Below, one piece after another: positions 1,732 to 32,812 of a DNA stretch of 32,812 nt. Below the pieces are notes generated by a model, which saw only the letters and a list, made by a program, of their open reading frames with translations, did no database searches and had not been told where the DNA came from. Each line of letters starts with the position of its first letter. Position 1 is the first letter of the stretch. A program made the translations under genes and the position numbers. Source of the stretch: a virus; the IMG/VR virus record IMGVR_UViG_3300021077_000037, positions 1 through 32,812 of that record; one strand, given 5' to 3'.

Positions 1732-4224
1732 TTATGCTGGACCCGCTAAATATAAAGCAGTTACATCTGATTGAGATAAAACTTTAGAATAAACTCGTGC
1801 GTCATCAACATACATTGTTCCGTGATGATTATAATCACTATCATACCGAGAGTTTATGACCCAATATGTTGTAGATTCATTAAAGCCAACCGAAGCTATT
1901 GAAGAAGATGCACTCTGAAGCACACCATCCATATACATTAATATGATATTCTGAGTTCTATCTACAGTTGCTACTAAATGATGCCATGCCCCCGTTATTC
2001 CGGTGTTAGTTGATGCAAACGATATGTTGGAATTGGCATCCGCCACTTGTAAAAAAGCTTTGGATGTTTCTGGGTCCAGGAAAATTAAAATTCCAGAACT
2101 GTTTTGAATGTAAGCTCCCAAAAACCCAGGGTAATTTCCATCGGTTGATATTTTGTTTACCCATATACACAACGATATATCTCCCAACATGTGAATTTTT
2201 GTCCCAAGTGAAACCCAAGAGCCTGTTGTCAATGACAAGGCGGAACTATTACTCCCAACATATGAGTTCGTTATCCAAGAATATCCAGACCCTAGTATTA
2301 ACCCATGTCTTCGATAATTACTATAATCAGTTATATTACTTCCAGTTATATTGTCAAATTTCCACCATCCCTGAAGGTCAGCATCAACGAACTGGGAATT
2401 AAGGGTATAACTTGCGGTTGAAGCATAACTTGAACTTATATTGGATAATATTCCCGATTGGCTGTTATATGTCATTGGAACAATGGAGATATATTCACTG
2501 CCAGAGATTCCATTAACAGTTAAACCATAATATTGAGAACTATCTGTATCATAATAGGTTTGTATTTGGTTGTTATTAGACACATAACTAGCACTTACAG
2601 CCCAACTCGAAGTGATAGGATACGTTGAGGCAGTCGTTAGTGTTGTTCCACCACCCCCACCATTCAAGGCGAATGATGCGGTCAATGAATAACTTGACGA
2701 TATTGCATTGGTGACACTCCCACTATTGATAACATAACTTGCAGTCGAAGCATAAGAGGCTGAAGAAGGAACATATTCAACTCCATTGCGATATACTTTG
2801 TCGGTTATGTTAATGCTGCCACTAATATCAACCGCATATCTTCCATCTGGGAAAAGATTACGAATTCCAACAACTCCATTTGGGTGAAGTGAATTTAAAC
2901 AAATAAATCCATAGGTGTTTCCTTGGCCCTCACCATCAATAAACACATTGTCGGAGGCATCAATGCTAATATTTGGTCCGGCATTATCCAAAGTAATGGA
3001 TGAACCATAACCACTGGCATTGAAAGTTCCACTAATATCCATCGAATATTGAGGACTGGTTTGATTAATACCAATTTGATGATTAACTGTATCATCAGTA
3101 ATGTCAGGATAATTGCTTCCAGTTCCACCCCCGCCATTCATAGCAAATGATGCTGTCAAAGCATAACTTGAAGATATTGCTTTACTTGCGGTATAAGGTA
3201 AATTATTATATTTTAATGAACCGTTGAAATTGACATCGCCGTCAAATGACCCAGAGCCATATTTGACTGCAAATGCTGGACCGGGTCTGGTTGTGTCATC
3301 TCCGTTGTCAATTAGTTGACCAACCCAGAACGAAGATGATGGAGACATGTCAAAATCAAAATCGTTGTAGGGACAACGTACTGTGCCTCCACCTTGTCCC
3401 AGAACAAACAATTGATTAAGATACCCGACCGAGCCTCCATCATTTGCATTGTCAACCACCCGGAAAGTAGATTGACTTAAACTATAATCTGGATTATCAT
3501 TCAGTTCAAAGTAAAATCCAGAACCATAATCGTAAAATTTGGTATTAGGAATAACATTCAATTCACCAATAGTTAATTGTTTTGAATAACTTGATGTTGA
3601 AGCATAAGATGCTGAAATTGATGGGCTTGATGGAGCGTAAGAAGCACTTATTGCTTGACTGCTGGTTATTTGATAAGTTGACCCGGTGATTAGACTGGTT
3701 CCCCCGCCATTTATGGCATACGAAGCAGTCAGAGAATAACTTGAAGAGATTGCGTTGGTAACACTTCCACTATTCAACGTATAGGAGGCAGTTGAAGCAT
3801 AACTTGCGGTTCCGTTTGTTCCACGAACATACCGAGCATCGCTGGCCACGGTTGAATAAGCCACTTGTCCGGCAATTCCCGTGGAACCCGTGGGAACAAT
3901 TACACAACTCCAACCATTGATGGTCTGTCCATTGGTCTCATTGACTTGGATGTATTCAACTGGGTCCACCATTCCCGGAACATAAATCAATGGATTATTC
4001 TTATTCGCATTCGTCCATTTTATGCGATAAGTTCCCGGTGCCAGATTATAAAACCATTCAACCCCATCAGTACCAGAATAAGAAGAGGTATGTCCATAAC
4101 TTGCGGTTGGCTGACTGGCTGAACCGGAGAAATATGGAGGATACAATGCCTGCAAATCCATCTTGCTCCCAACCAAAGGTTGAGTCATATCCGTCGTTGC
4201 CAATGGAAAGAAAAGTGTGGTCAT
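1732..4224 (-). CDS. Tail fibre with C-terminal LamG/concanavalin-like lectin domain
   Basis: An 830-residue protein. The N-terminus (about 1-130) is probably the tail attachment region. The middle has at least four copies of a SASYASTASY / SSSYxLTASFAMNGGG type repeat, separated by segments ending in SPQYSMDISG and GRYAVDISG, a motif common in fibre shafts. The C-terminal ~200 residues, starting near LQGWWKFDNITGS and including ISLCIWVNK, WHHLVATVDR and MYMDGVLQS, look like a LamG/concanavalin A-like jelly-roll that usually binds glycans. The start overlaps the stop of the upstream gene (ATGA), implying translational coupling. It probably works with the following 760-residue fibre in receptor binding. 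The lectin call is from motif pattern only. Confidence 0.8.
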   Translation of the reverse strand: MTTLFFPLATTDMTQPLVGSKMDLQALYPPYFSGSASQPTASYGHTSSYSGTDGVEWFYNLAPGTYRIKWTNANKNNPLIYVPGMVDPVEYIQVNETNGQTINGWSCVIVPTGSTGIAGQVAYSTVASDARYVRGTNGTASYASTASYTLNSGSVTNAISSSYSLTASYAINGGGTSLITGSTYQITSSQAISASYAPSSPSISASYASTSSYSKQLTIGELNVIPNTKFYDYGSGFYFELNDNPDYSLSQSTFRVVDNANDGGSVGYLNQLFVLGQGGGTVRCPYNDFDFDMSPSSSFWVGQLIDNGDDTTRPGPAFAVKYGSGSFDGDVNFNGSLKYNNLPYTASKAISSSYALTASFAMNGGGGTGSNYPDITDDTVNHQIGINQTSPQYSMDISGTFNASGYGSSITLDNAGPNISIDASDNVFIDGEGQGNTYGFICLNSLHPNGVVGIRNLFPDGRYAVDISGSINITDKVYRNGVEYVPSSASYASTASYVINSGSVTNAISSSYSLTASFALNGGGGGTTLTTASTYPITSSWAVSASYVSNNNQIQTYYDTDSSQYYGLTVNGISGSEYISIVPMTYNSQSGILSNISSSYASTASYTLNSQFVDADLQGWWKFDNITGSNITDYSNYRRHGLILGSGYSWITNSYVGSNSSALSLTTGSWVSLGTKIHMLGDISLCIWVNKISTDGNYPGFLGAYIQNSSGILIFLDPETSKAFLQVADANSNISFASTNTGITGAWHHLVATVDRTQNIILMYMDGVLQSASSSIASVGFNESTTYWVINSRYDSDYNHHGTMYVDDARVYSKVLSQSDVTALYLAGPA
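2600..2649. repeat. 50-bp repeat shared by the two fibre genes, copy 2
   Basis: Partner of 1495-1544 with a single base difference. It lies in the SASY-repeat region of the 830-residue fibre, just after a GGGGG linker. Confidence 0.85.
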
Positions 4225-9027: not shown

Positions 9028-9648
9028 TTAATCTAAAGAAAGAATAGAATCATGCATCTTTTCAAGCACATAATACACCTGACTGGTCTTGCTTTTGCTC
9101 TTCTTGGCAATGTCTTTCACATAGGAATTATACTCGCATTGAAACTCCTCGGGGTGTTCAATACAACGAATAACCATATCTTTAATCTTTTTCTCTTGTG
9201 CCCCAGTTATGTTGTTAAAGATACATTTGTGGGATAAGAGTATGGTTTTAAGTTCATCCCATTTGTCCATGTCCACGTGAAACTCATACAGGGAAGAAAC
9301 CCCGAAAAGAGCCTCTTCATTATTCACATCCTCAATGAAAATAAGTTTCTTTTTGTCTCGTTTCTCTTGATTTTCACTGCGAATTTTATTGAATAAGTAC
9401 CTCGACATCAATATGTAAAGAGCCGCCTTGCAGGTTCCTTTGGTGTTATCATACTTCAAAGGCAACTCAATGCAGGAATGAGACATTAGGTCTTGGATGG
9501 TATCGGGTATATCATTGGATTTCACGCCATATTTGGTACACAATGATGCCGCATAATAGCGGAATATGTCATATAAATGGGTGGCAAAGAAATCAGAATC
9601 TTGGTTTTGGCACCACAATTGGAGGGATTCTTCTAATTTAGGGATCAT
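9028..9648 (-). CDS. Sigma-factor-like protein inserted in the head module
   Basis: A 206-residue protein. Residues ~45-100 (DIPDTIQDLMSHSCIELPLK YDNTKGTCKAALYILMSRYLFNKIRSENQEK, read as two pieces) fit sigma region 2: a helix with a DxxQDxM motif, a 'fD.tKG..ka...i..ry......R' core-binding/-10 helix and a basic tail. The C-terminus (VKDIAKKSKSKTSQVYYVLEKMHDSIL) resembles a region-4 helix-turn-helix. This would make it a group-4-like sigma that directs host polymerase. It overlaps the gpG-like gene by 4 bp (ATGA). Its place inside the head operon is odd. A different helical DNA-binding protein is the main alternative. Confidence 0.55.
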   Translation of the reverse strand: MIPKLEESLQLWCQNQDSDFFATHLYDIFRYYAASLCTKYGVKSNDIPDTIQDLMSHSCIELPLKYDNTKGTCKAALYILMSRYLFNKIRSENQEKRDKKKLIFIEDVNNEEALFGVSSLYEFHVDMDKWDELKTILLSHKCIFNNITGAQEKKIKDMVIRCIEHPEEFQCEYNSYVKDIAKKSKSKTSQVYYVLEKMHDSILSLD

Positions 9649-23970: not shown

Positions 23971-24912
23971 TTACAACGGGCATAGAGTTCCGTGGTCTTT
24001 ATACCACGAGAATTGCTTCGCATGGGAATTCTTGATGCGGGTCAGGATCAGCCTGAGTTTGGGATACGTGGTCGAAGTCTTTTCCCTCAGAGCATTAAAA
24101 AATAAATGCTTTCCCTTGTTCGTCTGATTATCCCGAATTAGACTTATAGCCGAGTCCAGTCCGGATACATCACTCATGACATTGACAATGGTATTGTATG
24201 CTTCGGGGTAATGCTTGTAGTTGACACATACCTTCTCGGGAGAAGATTTAAGAAAGTCAATGAACAACTTATAGTATTCCGAATAATCCAAATCTGGCTT
24301 GTCAGTATAACTAAGTTCCTTGATGGGTGTATGGGGTTGATCGTCGGAAGGGTCAAGAGCATCCAGCGAACTGTGTTTGCGATAATCAACGGTCAATTGC
24401 TTGCTAAGAGCCATGTAATAATATTTAATCACCGTCGAAAAATACCCGAAGGCATGACCCTTGGATGAGTTATACTTTCCGATAGACAAACTGAGTTTGG
24501 TCATGGCCATGTTATGAAGAGTAACATAGTCTTCCCCATCGACTACTTTGTTCCAAGCTGCCCGGAACCGATTAAGGACGCATTCCACCAGCTTCGAAAA
24601 TGGATTATGCAGGCGTTCTTCCCAGATTTTGTTGCGTAAGTTGGCATCCTCAGTGGAGTTATACAGATCAATAACTTGGTCAAGCTCAATTGGGAAATAA
24701 TGGTTGGATGGAGAAGTCTGTGTTGTAATCATAGTAACTTGTTTCAAGAGTTTGGCTTTGATACGGCGTTGGCGTTCATGTTCATTGCGCTTGGCCTTGT
24801 ATTCAGGATTTTGCTCCCGAAGACGTTTTCGTTCTTTCCACGCTTGATTATTTCGGCACCATTCCCGTTGGTAATCTCGTTTCTTTTGTCTTTGTTCGGG
24901 GGTTAGTAACAT
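23971..24912 (-). CDS. T4 gp55-like late sigma factor
   Basis: A 313-residue protein from ATG 24912 (an upstream TTG is in frame). Residues ~100-175 match phage late sigma/gp55-like proteins: HNPFSKLVECVLNRFRAAWN, then DYVTLHNMAMTKLSLSIGKY and NSSKGHAFGYFSTVIKYYYM, i.e. 'kL...i....l...fD..KG.AFsYF...i.y...'. This is the region that contacts core polymerase and melts the -10 box. The first ~60 residues are basic and helical (KKRDYQREW, ERKRLREQNPEYKAKR), like the DNA-binding tails seen near HNH-type proteins, which is not usual in gp55. It is followed by about 75 bp before the next possible gene. Confidence 0.65.
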   Translation of the reverse strand: MLLTPEQRQKKRDYQREWCRNNQAWKERKRLREQNPEYKAKRNEHERQRRIKAKLLKQVTMITTQTSPSNHYFPIELDQVIDLYNSTEDANLRNKIWEERLHNPFSKLVECVLNRFRAAWNKVVDGEDYVTLHNMAMTKLSLSIGKYNSSKGHAFGYFSTVIKYYYMALSKQLTVDYRKHSSLDALDPSDDQPHTPIKELSYTDKPDLDYSEYYKLFIDFLKSSPEKVCVNYKHYPEAYNTIVNVMSDVSGLDSAISLIRDNQTNKGKHLFFNALREKTSTTYPKLRLILTRIKNSHAKQFSWYKDHGTLCPL

Positions 24913-24924
24913 ATCTTTCAACTT

Positions 24925-25576: not shown

Positions 25577-26596
25577 TTATAAAGCATTTTTATTGACGGG
25601 ATGGTCCATGGAGCCTTTGAATGTTATAGAAACTCCTATACGGTCACCGGGGATGGTTAACGCCCCATTTAATTCATTCCATACACGGTCAAATTCGTCT
25701 GCCATATTAAGGGGTTGGGCTGCTGCCGCCGTTTGGCGGGATGTAGCAAGCCCCGCTTCATAATCTCGCATGGAGACACTTGAAGTATGAACCAAAGAAG
25801 GTGAAACCAGACAGGCATTAAATGAAGTAACCAAATCCATTGAATTTACTTTAGTCACCGAAATTGAATCCACCGACCTTGAAGTAGGAACCAAGGGCTT
25901 CATAGTATCAGCCAGTCCAGTGGATTTTTTCCATATATTGGTTTGACGTTCAATGATTGTTTTTGTCTCCTGATTTATTTTATTGTAAATTGAACTGGAA
26001 GACCCGAAGTCATTGAAGTAATCCCCAAACAAAGATACCGAGCCAGACTTTTGTAAGTTAGGTTCAAGGTCAGTGCTGCCAGAATTAAGTAATAAGACAG
26101 AATCTTTTTTTTCTTCTTCTTTCTTAAAATCTTTTTTTTCTATCTTCTTTTTAGGTTCATGCCATGAACACTCTCTGTTCATGGCATGAACACCTACCTG
26201 TTCATGGCATGAACACTCTCTGTTCATGGCATGAACATAACTCGATTTGGGTCTGCGTTGTTTCTGCTTGGATTTTACGGATTTATTGTTCATGGCATGA
26301 ACAATCCATGCTACAAATTGGTCATACGAAAACTCTATTGTAATGGCTTTCTGGACCCCCGTCTTTTTGACAAACGGCCATACATTCAAGATTTTACTGA
26401 CTAACCCGACTGAAATACCAGTCTCTTTGGATAATTGTCGAACATGGAATACCCATCCTCGTCCCTCGTTTGCTTTGGTCAAATTGCTCTGATAAAGCAT
26501 TTTATCCAGAAGAACGTATTCGGAAGTGGTTAAAATAGCCAGCCATTCAAGCTGTGCTCGATTGTGTCGTTTTTCAGTATTTGATTTTACGCTCAT
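25577..26596 (-). CDS. Replication initiator, O-like winged-helix protein with internal origin
   Basis: A 339-residue protein. Residues ~15-85 look like a winged-helix DNA-binding domain (EWLAILTTSEYVLLDKMLYQ; WVFHVRQLSKETGISVGLVS, where the recognition-helix motif is SKETGISVGLVSKIL). Residues ~100-145 carry VHAMN repeats because the gene holds five 17-bp palindromes here. They are followed by a Lys/Glu-rich stretch and a disordered Ser/Thr/Asn-rich region, then a helical C-terminus (ADEFDRVWNELNG). The layout matches lambda O: DNA-binding N-domain, origin iterons inside the gene, then an AT-rich tract, C-terminal partner-binding region. With no polymerase or helicase in the genome, it should recruit the host replisome. 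Sequence identity to O was not tested. Confidence 0.7.
   Translation of the reverse strand: MSVKSNTEKRHNRAQLEWLAILTTSEYVLLDKMLYQSNLTKANEGRGWVFHVRQLSKETGISVGLVSKILNVWPFVKKTGVQKAITIEFSYDQFVAWIVHAMNNKSVKSKQKQRRPKSSYVHAMNRECSCHEQVGVHAMNRECSWHEPKKKIEKKDFKKEEEKKDSVLLLNSGSTDLEPNLQKSGSVSLFGDYFNDFGSSSSIYNKINQETKTIIERQTNIWKKSTGLADTMKPLVPTSRSVDSISVTKVNSMDLVTSFNACLVSPSLVHTSSVSMRDYEAGLATSRQTAAAAQPLNMADEFDRVWNELNGALTIPGDRIGVSITFKGSMDHPVNKNAL
26104..26152. other. Purine/pyrimidine AT-rich tract (likely DNA unwinding element)
   Basis: A nearly pure A+G run on the minus strand (poly-A with scattered G) lies directly next to the iterons, on the side toward the C-terminal codons. In lambda the AT-rich tract flanks the O iterons on the same side. 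Low thermal stability makes this the probable first melting site. Confidence 0.65.
26154..26303. repeat. Five palindromic origin iterons
   Basis: TGTTCATGGCATGAACA (8-bp arms around a G) occurs exactly at 26176, 26199, 26221 and 26287; a near copy with C as the centre and G first starts at 26154. Spacings are 22, 23, 22 and 66 bp, i.e. two or six helical turns, so the sites face the same side of the helix. They lie inside the initiator gene and are adjacent to the AT-rich tract, the standard composition of a replication origin. Confidence 0.85.
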
Positions 26597-26604
26597 AATT
26601 TCCC

Positions 26605-26775
26605 TTATTTTCTTGATGCTTCAAATTCTTGGGTTTTGCTGCGGACGTATTGTTTAACATCTTCATGGATAACCTCGGGCATCAAAAAGCTGGTCATGAT
26701 GTAGCCCATAGCTTTCTTCTTATTTCTGTATTTCTTGTTTTCAGCCCTTCTTTGTTCAAGTGTTTTCTTTACCAT
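26605..26775 (-). CDS. Small basic protein (56 residues)
   Basis: ATG 26775 opens a 56-codon frame: MVKKTLEQRRAENKKYRNKK, then YIMTSFLMPEVIHEDVKQYV. Stop 8 bp before the initiator start. A strongly basic N-terminal helix and a second helix suggest nucleic-acid or protein binding. Being the first gene of the minus operon, it may regulate the initiator or its promoter. No family recognised. Confidence 0.55.
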   Translation of the reverse strand: MVKKTLEQRRAENKKYRNKKKAMGYIMTSFLMPEVIHEDVKQYVRSKTQEFEASRK

Positions 26776-26847: not shown

Positions 26848-26881
26848 AAAAAATCCCCGATAGAATTGCTTCTATCAGGGA
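26848..26881 (-). terminator. Intrinsic terminator on the minus strand, upstream of the initiator operon
   Basis: TCCC/GGGA plus GATAGAA/TTCTATC arms (one C-A mismatch) around a TTGC loop, followed on the minus strand by six T. It can stop minus-strand transcripts before the initiator operon, so either a short RNA ends here or incoming read-through is cut. Confidence 0.75.
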
Positions 26882-32180: not shown

Positions 32181-32812
32181 TTATGCCAAACTCGCACTTG
32201 TCCAATTGGTTCCGTTGTAAATGTACAAAATATTCGTTGACGCATTCATTTGCATATAGGCCGAGCCTACATTTGCGACCGGAGTTAATGCTTTAGTTGA
32301 ACTTGAATACGGCAACTGAAACAATGTTGCTGCGACCACGGAACTTGCTGACAGAGTGCTAGCTACATTCAAGTATGAACATCCAACGTCACCATAAACG
32401 TCCAAAGCATAACGAGGATTGTTGTTATTGACCCCCATGCGGTTATAGTAGGGAGCAATTTGATAAAGATTCTGGTCATTGTTATACCAATTGGTGATGA
32501 ACATTTTACCATTGTTTGTAAGCATCAATTCATTCGGAGCACAATAGAAGTCAAAGTAATATCTTAATGGAACATTTAGATTTCCGTTTTGATATACCAC
32601 GAAATATCCATTCGGGCTACCGTTGTAAATGTTTGTTCCATCCCCCCAAATACCATATGAAACATCGGCAGATTGAGTCGTGAACGTAAAGCTAGAGGTA
32701 TTGAATACTGTAATAATTCCTAGAGACTCATTACCAAGATACAAATTTCCATTTTGAATCAATGCGTCATCAGTGAAATAACCACCCACAAATGAACTGG
32801 TGTAAGTCAAAT
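32181..32812 (-). CDS. Large tail fibre / adhesin, C-terminal part (joins the gene at 1706)
   Basis: Continues the 760-residue fibre across the junction: the codon ending the right edge corresponds to base 53 on the left and is in the same frame. Contains a further propeller-like strand (IWGDGTNIYNGSPNGYFVVY), then NPRYALDVYGDVGCSYLNVA, a motif typical before fibre tips, and an Asn/Thr/Tyr-rich end (MNASTNILYIYNGTNWTSAS). Stop TAA at 32183-32181, 99 bp upstream of the holin-like ATG at 32081. Confidence 0.85.
   Translation of the reverse strand, partial: LTYTSSFVGGYFTDDALIQNGNLYLGNESLGIITVFNTSSFTFTTQSADVSYGIWGDGTNIYNGSPNGYFVVYQNGNLNVPLRYYFDFYCAPNELMLTNNGKMFITNWYNNDQNLYQIAPYYNRMGVNNNNPRYALDVYGDVGCSYLNVASTLSASSVVAATLFQLPYSSSTKALTPVANVGSAYMQMNASTNILYIYNGTNWTSASLA
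32758..32812. repeat. Terminal direct repeat, right copy
   Basis: Exact copy of bases 1-55. See the left copy; together they close the genome. Confidence 0.93.

Follow-up and report, generated by a model that had tools for sequence, protein, structure and literature searches.

The window analyzed here, a viral DNA stretch of 32,812 nucleotides (IMG/VR record IMGVR_UViG_3300021077_000037), contains on its minus strand a gene for a 339-aa protein, within which five copies of a palindrome are followed in the coding direction by an A-rich tract. The features of this locus are listed below.

26605-26775, minus strand: gene for a 56-aa basic protein, directly upstream of the 339-aa gene; no Pfam hit above the cut-off
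25577-26596, minus strand: gene for a putative replication initiator of 339 aa, as translated
26287-26303: iteron 1, exact, the first in the coding direction; codon 98, encoding VHAMN
26221-26237: iteron 2, exact; codon 120, encoding VHAMN
26199-26215: iteron 3, exact; codon 128, in the other frame, encoding CSCHE
26176-26192: iteron 4, exact; codon 135, encoding VHAMN
26154-26170: iteron 5, one end mismatch (on one strand) and the opposite centre base; codon 143, encoding CSWHE
26104-26152, minus strand: A-rich tract, putative DNA-unwinding element; 35 A, 9 G, 5 T and 0 C on the coding strand
Initiator residues about 20-100: putative winged helix (from a model of residues 1-105)
Initiator residues 98-148: part encoded by the iteron array
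Initiator residues 148-165: Lys/Glu-rich stretch encoded by the A-rich tract
Initiator residues 166-339: C-terminal part, to which no fold was assigned

The palindrome is 17 bases long (TGTTCATG-S-CATGAACA), and its five copies, four exact and one with a single end mismatch, lie within 26154-26303 at start-to-start distances of 22, 23, 22 and 66 bp. All of them are inside the 339-aa frame (26596-25577, minus strand), 290-440 bp past the gene start, and no further site was found in the whole window, even when three mismatches were allowed. In 100 shuffled sequences we observed a mean of 0.25 matches and a maximum of two, compared with 10 strand matches in the real sequence. Thus, search and shuffles confirmed the copies and spacings that had been described in an earlier reading of the letters (hereafter, the sequence-only reading). 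The same reading stated that the iterons encode VHAMN repeats, which holds for three of the five (codons 98, 120 and 135); the other two (codons 128 and 143) use a second reading frame and give CSCHE and CSWHE. Because the iteron nucleotides are the same while the encoded peptides differ, the conserved unit is the DNA and not the protein. It was right, however, that protein linker and candidate origin are the same DNA.

The 49-bp A-rich tract, whose presence beside the array was also borne out, directly follows the array in the coding direction and ends 1 bp from the nearest copy (35 T, 9 C, 5 A and 0 G on the plus strand). Ranked by duplex instability, its best 50-bp segment fell into the uppermost 0.5% of such segments genome-wide, and the tract also holds a homopyrimidine/homopurine run of 23 nt, the longest one in the genome. 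Upstream of the array-bearing gene, the stop codon of the 56-aa gene lies 8 nt before the initiator ATG, and the two genes probably form one operon. A terminator-like hairpin with a 12-bp stem and a T-run (26854-26881, minus strand) was also observed upstream of this operon, on the operon's own strand and in the divergent region, and might possibly be a leader attenuator.

Analysis of the whole record revealed that 55 bp are identical at both ends (1-55 and 32758-32812) and that a 763-aa tail-fibre-like reading frame spans the joint of the ends. Based on this terminal overlap and the frame reading across the junction, the 32.8-kb record probably represents a complete circular genome of 32,757 bp. 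Profile searches verified the Mu-like head that the sequence-only reading had proposed (Portal_Mu, E = 2e-35; Mu-like protease, E = 7e-21; Mu gp36, E = 1e-7). The Mu-like character was found in the head only: no DDE transposase or MuB-type ATPase was matched in the genome, and thus the phage could not be assigned to the Mu-like transposable phages. Pfam and PHROG scans of the genome recognised no helicase, helicase loader, primase, polymerase, transposase or integrase, and the canonical P-loop was absent from the likely real open reading frames of at least 150 aa, the sole motif match being in an open reading frame antisense to another one. As many genes of the genome had no match, divergent orphan replication enzymes may hide among them. 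Nevertheless, because the genome is probably complete and no other replication protein was recognised, the 339-aa protein is the only visible candidate for an initiator. The nearest named phages were Akkermansia phages, with 28-32% identity in terminase and capsid; apart from this distant head and terminase kinship, the phage appears, as judged by sequence comparison, to have no characterised relatives.

For comparison, the lambda O/ori region (NC_001416, 38686-39585) was measured with the same tools as the window. The lambda origin occupies the middle of O and consists of iterons and an AT-rich tract that is required for unwinding, a process that needs only two iterons and the adjoining tract (PMC7466680). 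Lambda has four annotated iterons within codons 117-139 of 299, at a pitch of 20/24/23 bp and in three different frames, followed by a coding-strand A-rich stretch (30 A in 60 nt). Its counterpart in the window has a pitch of 66/22/23/22 bp, covers codons 98-143 of 339, and is likewise followed by a coding-strand A-rich tract. Hence, the two loci agree in the order of their parts and in where these lie in the gene, in pitch, in the changes of frame and in A-rich tract polarity, and both carry palindromic iterons about two helical turns apart in mid-gene, which in lambda follow the DNA-binding domain. This side-by-side measurement supported the lambda O/ori architecture claimed earlier. Among the marks of an embedded origin, the window shows an inferred initiator gene with several palindromic iterons, repeated roughly every 20-24 bp, and an A/T-rich tract directly beside them. 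On the other hand, a helicase-loader gene (P or equivalent), which lambda has adjacent to O, was not recognised next to the array. The lambda iteron sequence is unrelated to that of the window, with four copies versus five here, and similarity between lambda O and the 339-aa protein was undetectable (BLASTP E = 0.92, covering the Lys/Glu stretch only).

Overall, we consider it likely that the array and the A-rich tract are the replication origin of this phage, of lambda O/ori type and located within the gene that codes for its initiator. Based on this layout, we infer the following course of events. The putative N-terminal DNA-binding domain would bind the five palindromes as dimers; since the palindromes are spaced about two helical turns apart, the DNA would be wrapped into an O-some-like complex. 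Wrapping would strain and melt the adjoining A-rich tract, where replication would start. The C-terminal part might then recruit the host helicase and its loader, a step that we propose since neither was recognised among the genes of the phage. The best reading is a self-contained theta origin with its own initiator, which would depend on the host for replisome loading.

Several results spoke against an origin. First, the 339-aa protein matched no family in Pfam or PHROG, including Phage_rep_O, and no profile of Rep_3 or DnaD-like initiators, so no family or significant sequence match linked it to lambda O, Rep_3 or DnaD, whose folds the sequence-only reading had suggested for comparison. No homologues were found in viral contigs, phages or plasmids, in the loci around related terminases and capsids, or in 296 Bacteroidota genomes (the last search being run without a positive control). 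On sequence grounds, the protein is not a member of the lambda O family, and it is unplaced by family. The iteron pair was not found in viral contigs, and a k-mer scan detected no similar arrays in related phage loci. Second, the fold evidence was of low confidence. The single-sequence model of residues 1-105 (pLDDT 62) showed the order helix-strand-helix-helix-strand, which fits a winged helix, and the Foldseek matches included many winged-helix regulators (FNR, MarR, ArsR and CodY types), none of which was significant (best E of 0.09 among solved structures and 0.047 among viral structures); the full-length model (pLDDT 34) was uninformative. The proposed winged-helix protein thus agreed with the predicted topology and lacked a significant structural match, and the model is somewhat suggestive of such an N-terminal domain, which counts in favour of an initiator. 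Finally, the GC-skew minimum expected at 26.2 kb did not appear; this position was unmarked, with the extremes at 19.5 and 7.4 kb, and no DnaA-box cluster was found beside the array. As an origin marker, GC skew was uninformative. The AT and purine skews turned at 26.8-27.0 kb, where the gene strand also switches.

The only serious rival to an origin is an operator, in which the protein itself or a host regulator would bind the intragenic palindromes and, as a roadblock or in autoregulation, switch the early operon off. Tandem palindromes at a 22-bp pitch are operator-like as well, and GTTCATGSCATGAAC pairs in actinobacteria and intergenic arrays in Bacteroidales provide examples. However, all five sites are located 290-440 bp into the gene, the divergent promoter region (26.78-27.02 kb) contains none of them, no promoter-like site was found over the array, and an operator leaves the adjacent A-rich tract unexplained. 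An operator is thus unlikely in our view.

The array might also serve as a centromere-like partition site of a plasmid-like phage, with the 339-aa protein as centromere-binding adaptor. Centromere arrays are typically tandem palindromes, and no integrase was recognised in a genome that appears complete; however, neither a ParA-like or other P-loop ATPase nor a match to a partition family was found, which makes this explanation very improbable. We give equally little credit to a role of the repeats in mRNA, as a nested hairpin acting in attenuation or stability. The coding-strand RNA of the array indeed has a folding energy of -61 kcal/mol (z = -7.7 versus shuffles), but any set of perfect palindromes folds in this way, a search for terminator-like sites gave none at the array, and RNA pairing requires neither that each copy is itself palindromic nor that a pitch of about two turns is kept. 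Least probable of all is a recent functionless tandem duplication that a disordered linker of the protein would accommodate. The spacers of the four close copies (CTCTC/CCTACC/CTCTC) are similar to one another, and these copies probably did arise by duplication; but one spacer now differs in both length and sequence with the palindromes unchanged, the palindrome is kept in both frames, and the isolated copy, 49 bp off the cluster and with an unrelated spacer, is still an exact palindrome.

The same palindrome core also occurs in bacteria. In a few Bacteroidales metagenome-assembled genomes (G001-G005), the core WTCATGSCATGAW was present at 26-101 sites per genome, whereas its reversed control was absent. 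The sites were grouped between genes, 2-7 per array and strictly with a 22-bp pitch (loci L006, L007, L009, L011, L014-L018 and L020-L025). Of 295 Bacteroidales genomes sampled, only one had such arrays, which have the appearance of a dispersed repeat restricted to a genus or of an array for cooperative protein binding. In actinobacteria (L008, L010, L013, L019 and L027), a single GTTCATGSCATGAAC pair at 22-bp pitch was observed, which in three of the five loci stood just before a gene that is NmrA-like by eye; this pair is probably a two-dimer operator. The shared palindrome was considered as a clue to the host and set aside, as it occurs in few genomes only and Akkermansia-like phages are what the head and the terminase indicate. 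We treat the shared core as a convergence of winged-helix-type binding sites and not as host evidence.

With regard to other phages, the closest named ones by terminase were the Akkermansia phages Chantilly and Chambord, the former also by capsid. In Chantilly, both the portal (E = 3e-51) and the protease are Mu-like, and the gene that immediately precedes dnaB (L029, 24136-24906, minus strand) contains embedded GRAACCR repeats with a period of 12 bp and, after them, a purine-rich tract; Chambord has a homologous gene before dnaB (L028, 15495-16256, plus strand). Thus, like the window, these phages possess an initiator-like gene, in their case unannotated, with embedded repeats and a purine-rich tract, a candidate origin. 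Since their repeats keep to one reading frame and lack palindromic symmetry, the arrangement is analogous to that of the window and not the same, and the encoded protein is unrelated to the 339-aa protein. Both phages also encode DnaB, an integrase and recombination genes, whereas no helicase or integrase was recognised in the window. The sequence-only reading found the layout unfamiliar in a phage with a Mu-like head. This surprise is weakened, because Chantilly combines a Mu-like portal and protease with gene-embedded repeats; a Mu-like head without transposase annotation and a repeat-bearing initiator-like gene already coexist in public records. As a second yardstick for embedded origins, the rep gene of TP901-1 gave no direct repeats at the settings used. 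In SPP1, oriL is located in gene 38 and, unlike the window, the phage encodes its own loader and helicase. Judging by description, the proposed origin also resembles those of SPP1 and other replisome-organizer phages in having an initiator at a discrete origin. The SPP1 initiator binds such an origin and passes on to helicase loading (PMC5615212).

Accordingly, the embedded-origin design is known, and what is most likely new is that a novel, unrelated protein carries it. If the origin is real, the lambda-style placement of an origin in the initiator gene would recur in a lineage distant from the lambdoid phages, there with an unrelated protein, and an embedded origin would work with an apparently minimal set of replication genes. 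A bolder version, which we find possible and rather doubtful, is that the 339-aa protein is the first member of a new family of initiators with gene-embedded origins, which arose independently of lambda O, in a complete phage with no other replication gene, where a single protein would open the origin and capture the host helicase directly. In either case, the locus offers one testable 200-bp module for a phage that, beyond its distant kinship with Akkermansia phages in head and terminase, has no characterised relatives.

Two further groups of proteins were observed elsewhere in the genome. Those encoded at 23971-24921 and 9028-9648 (both minus strand) have the look of phage late sigma factors by eye (YxxxKG...F motifs) and matched no family. 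The tail-fibre-like protein at 1732-4224 (minus strand) contains many SASYASTASY-type repeats and a terminal laminin-G-type lectin domain (E = 3e-14).
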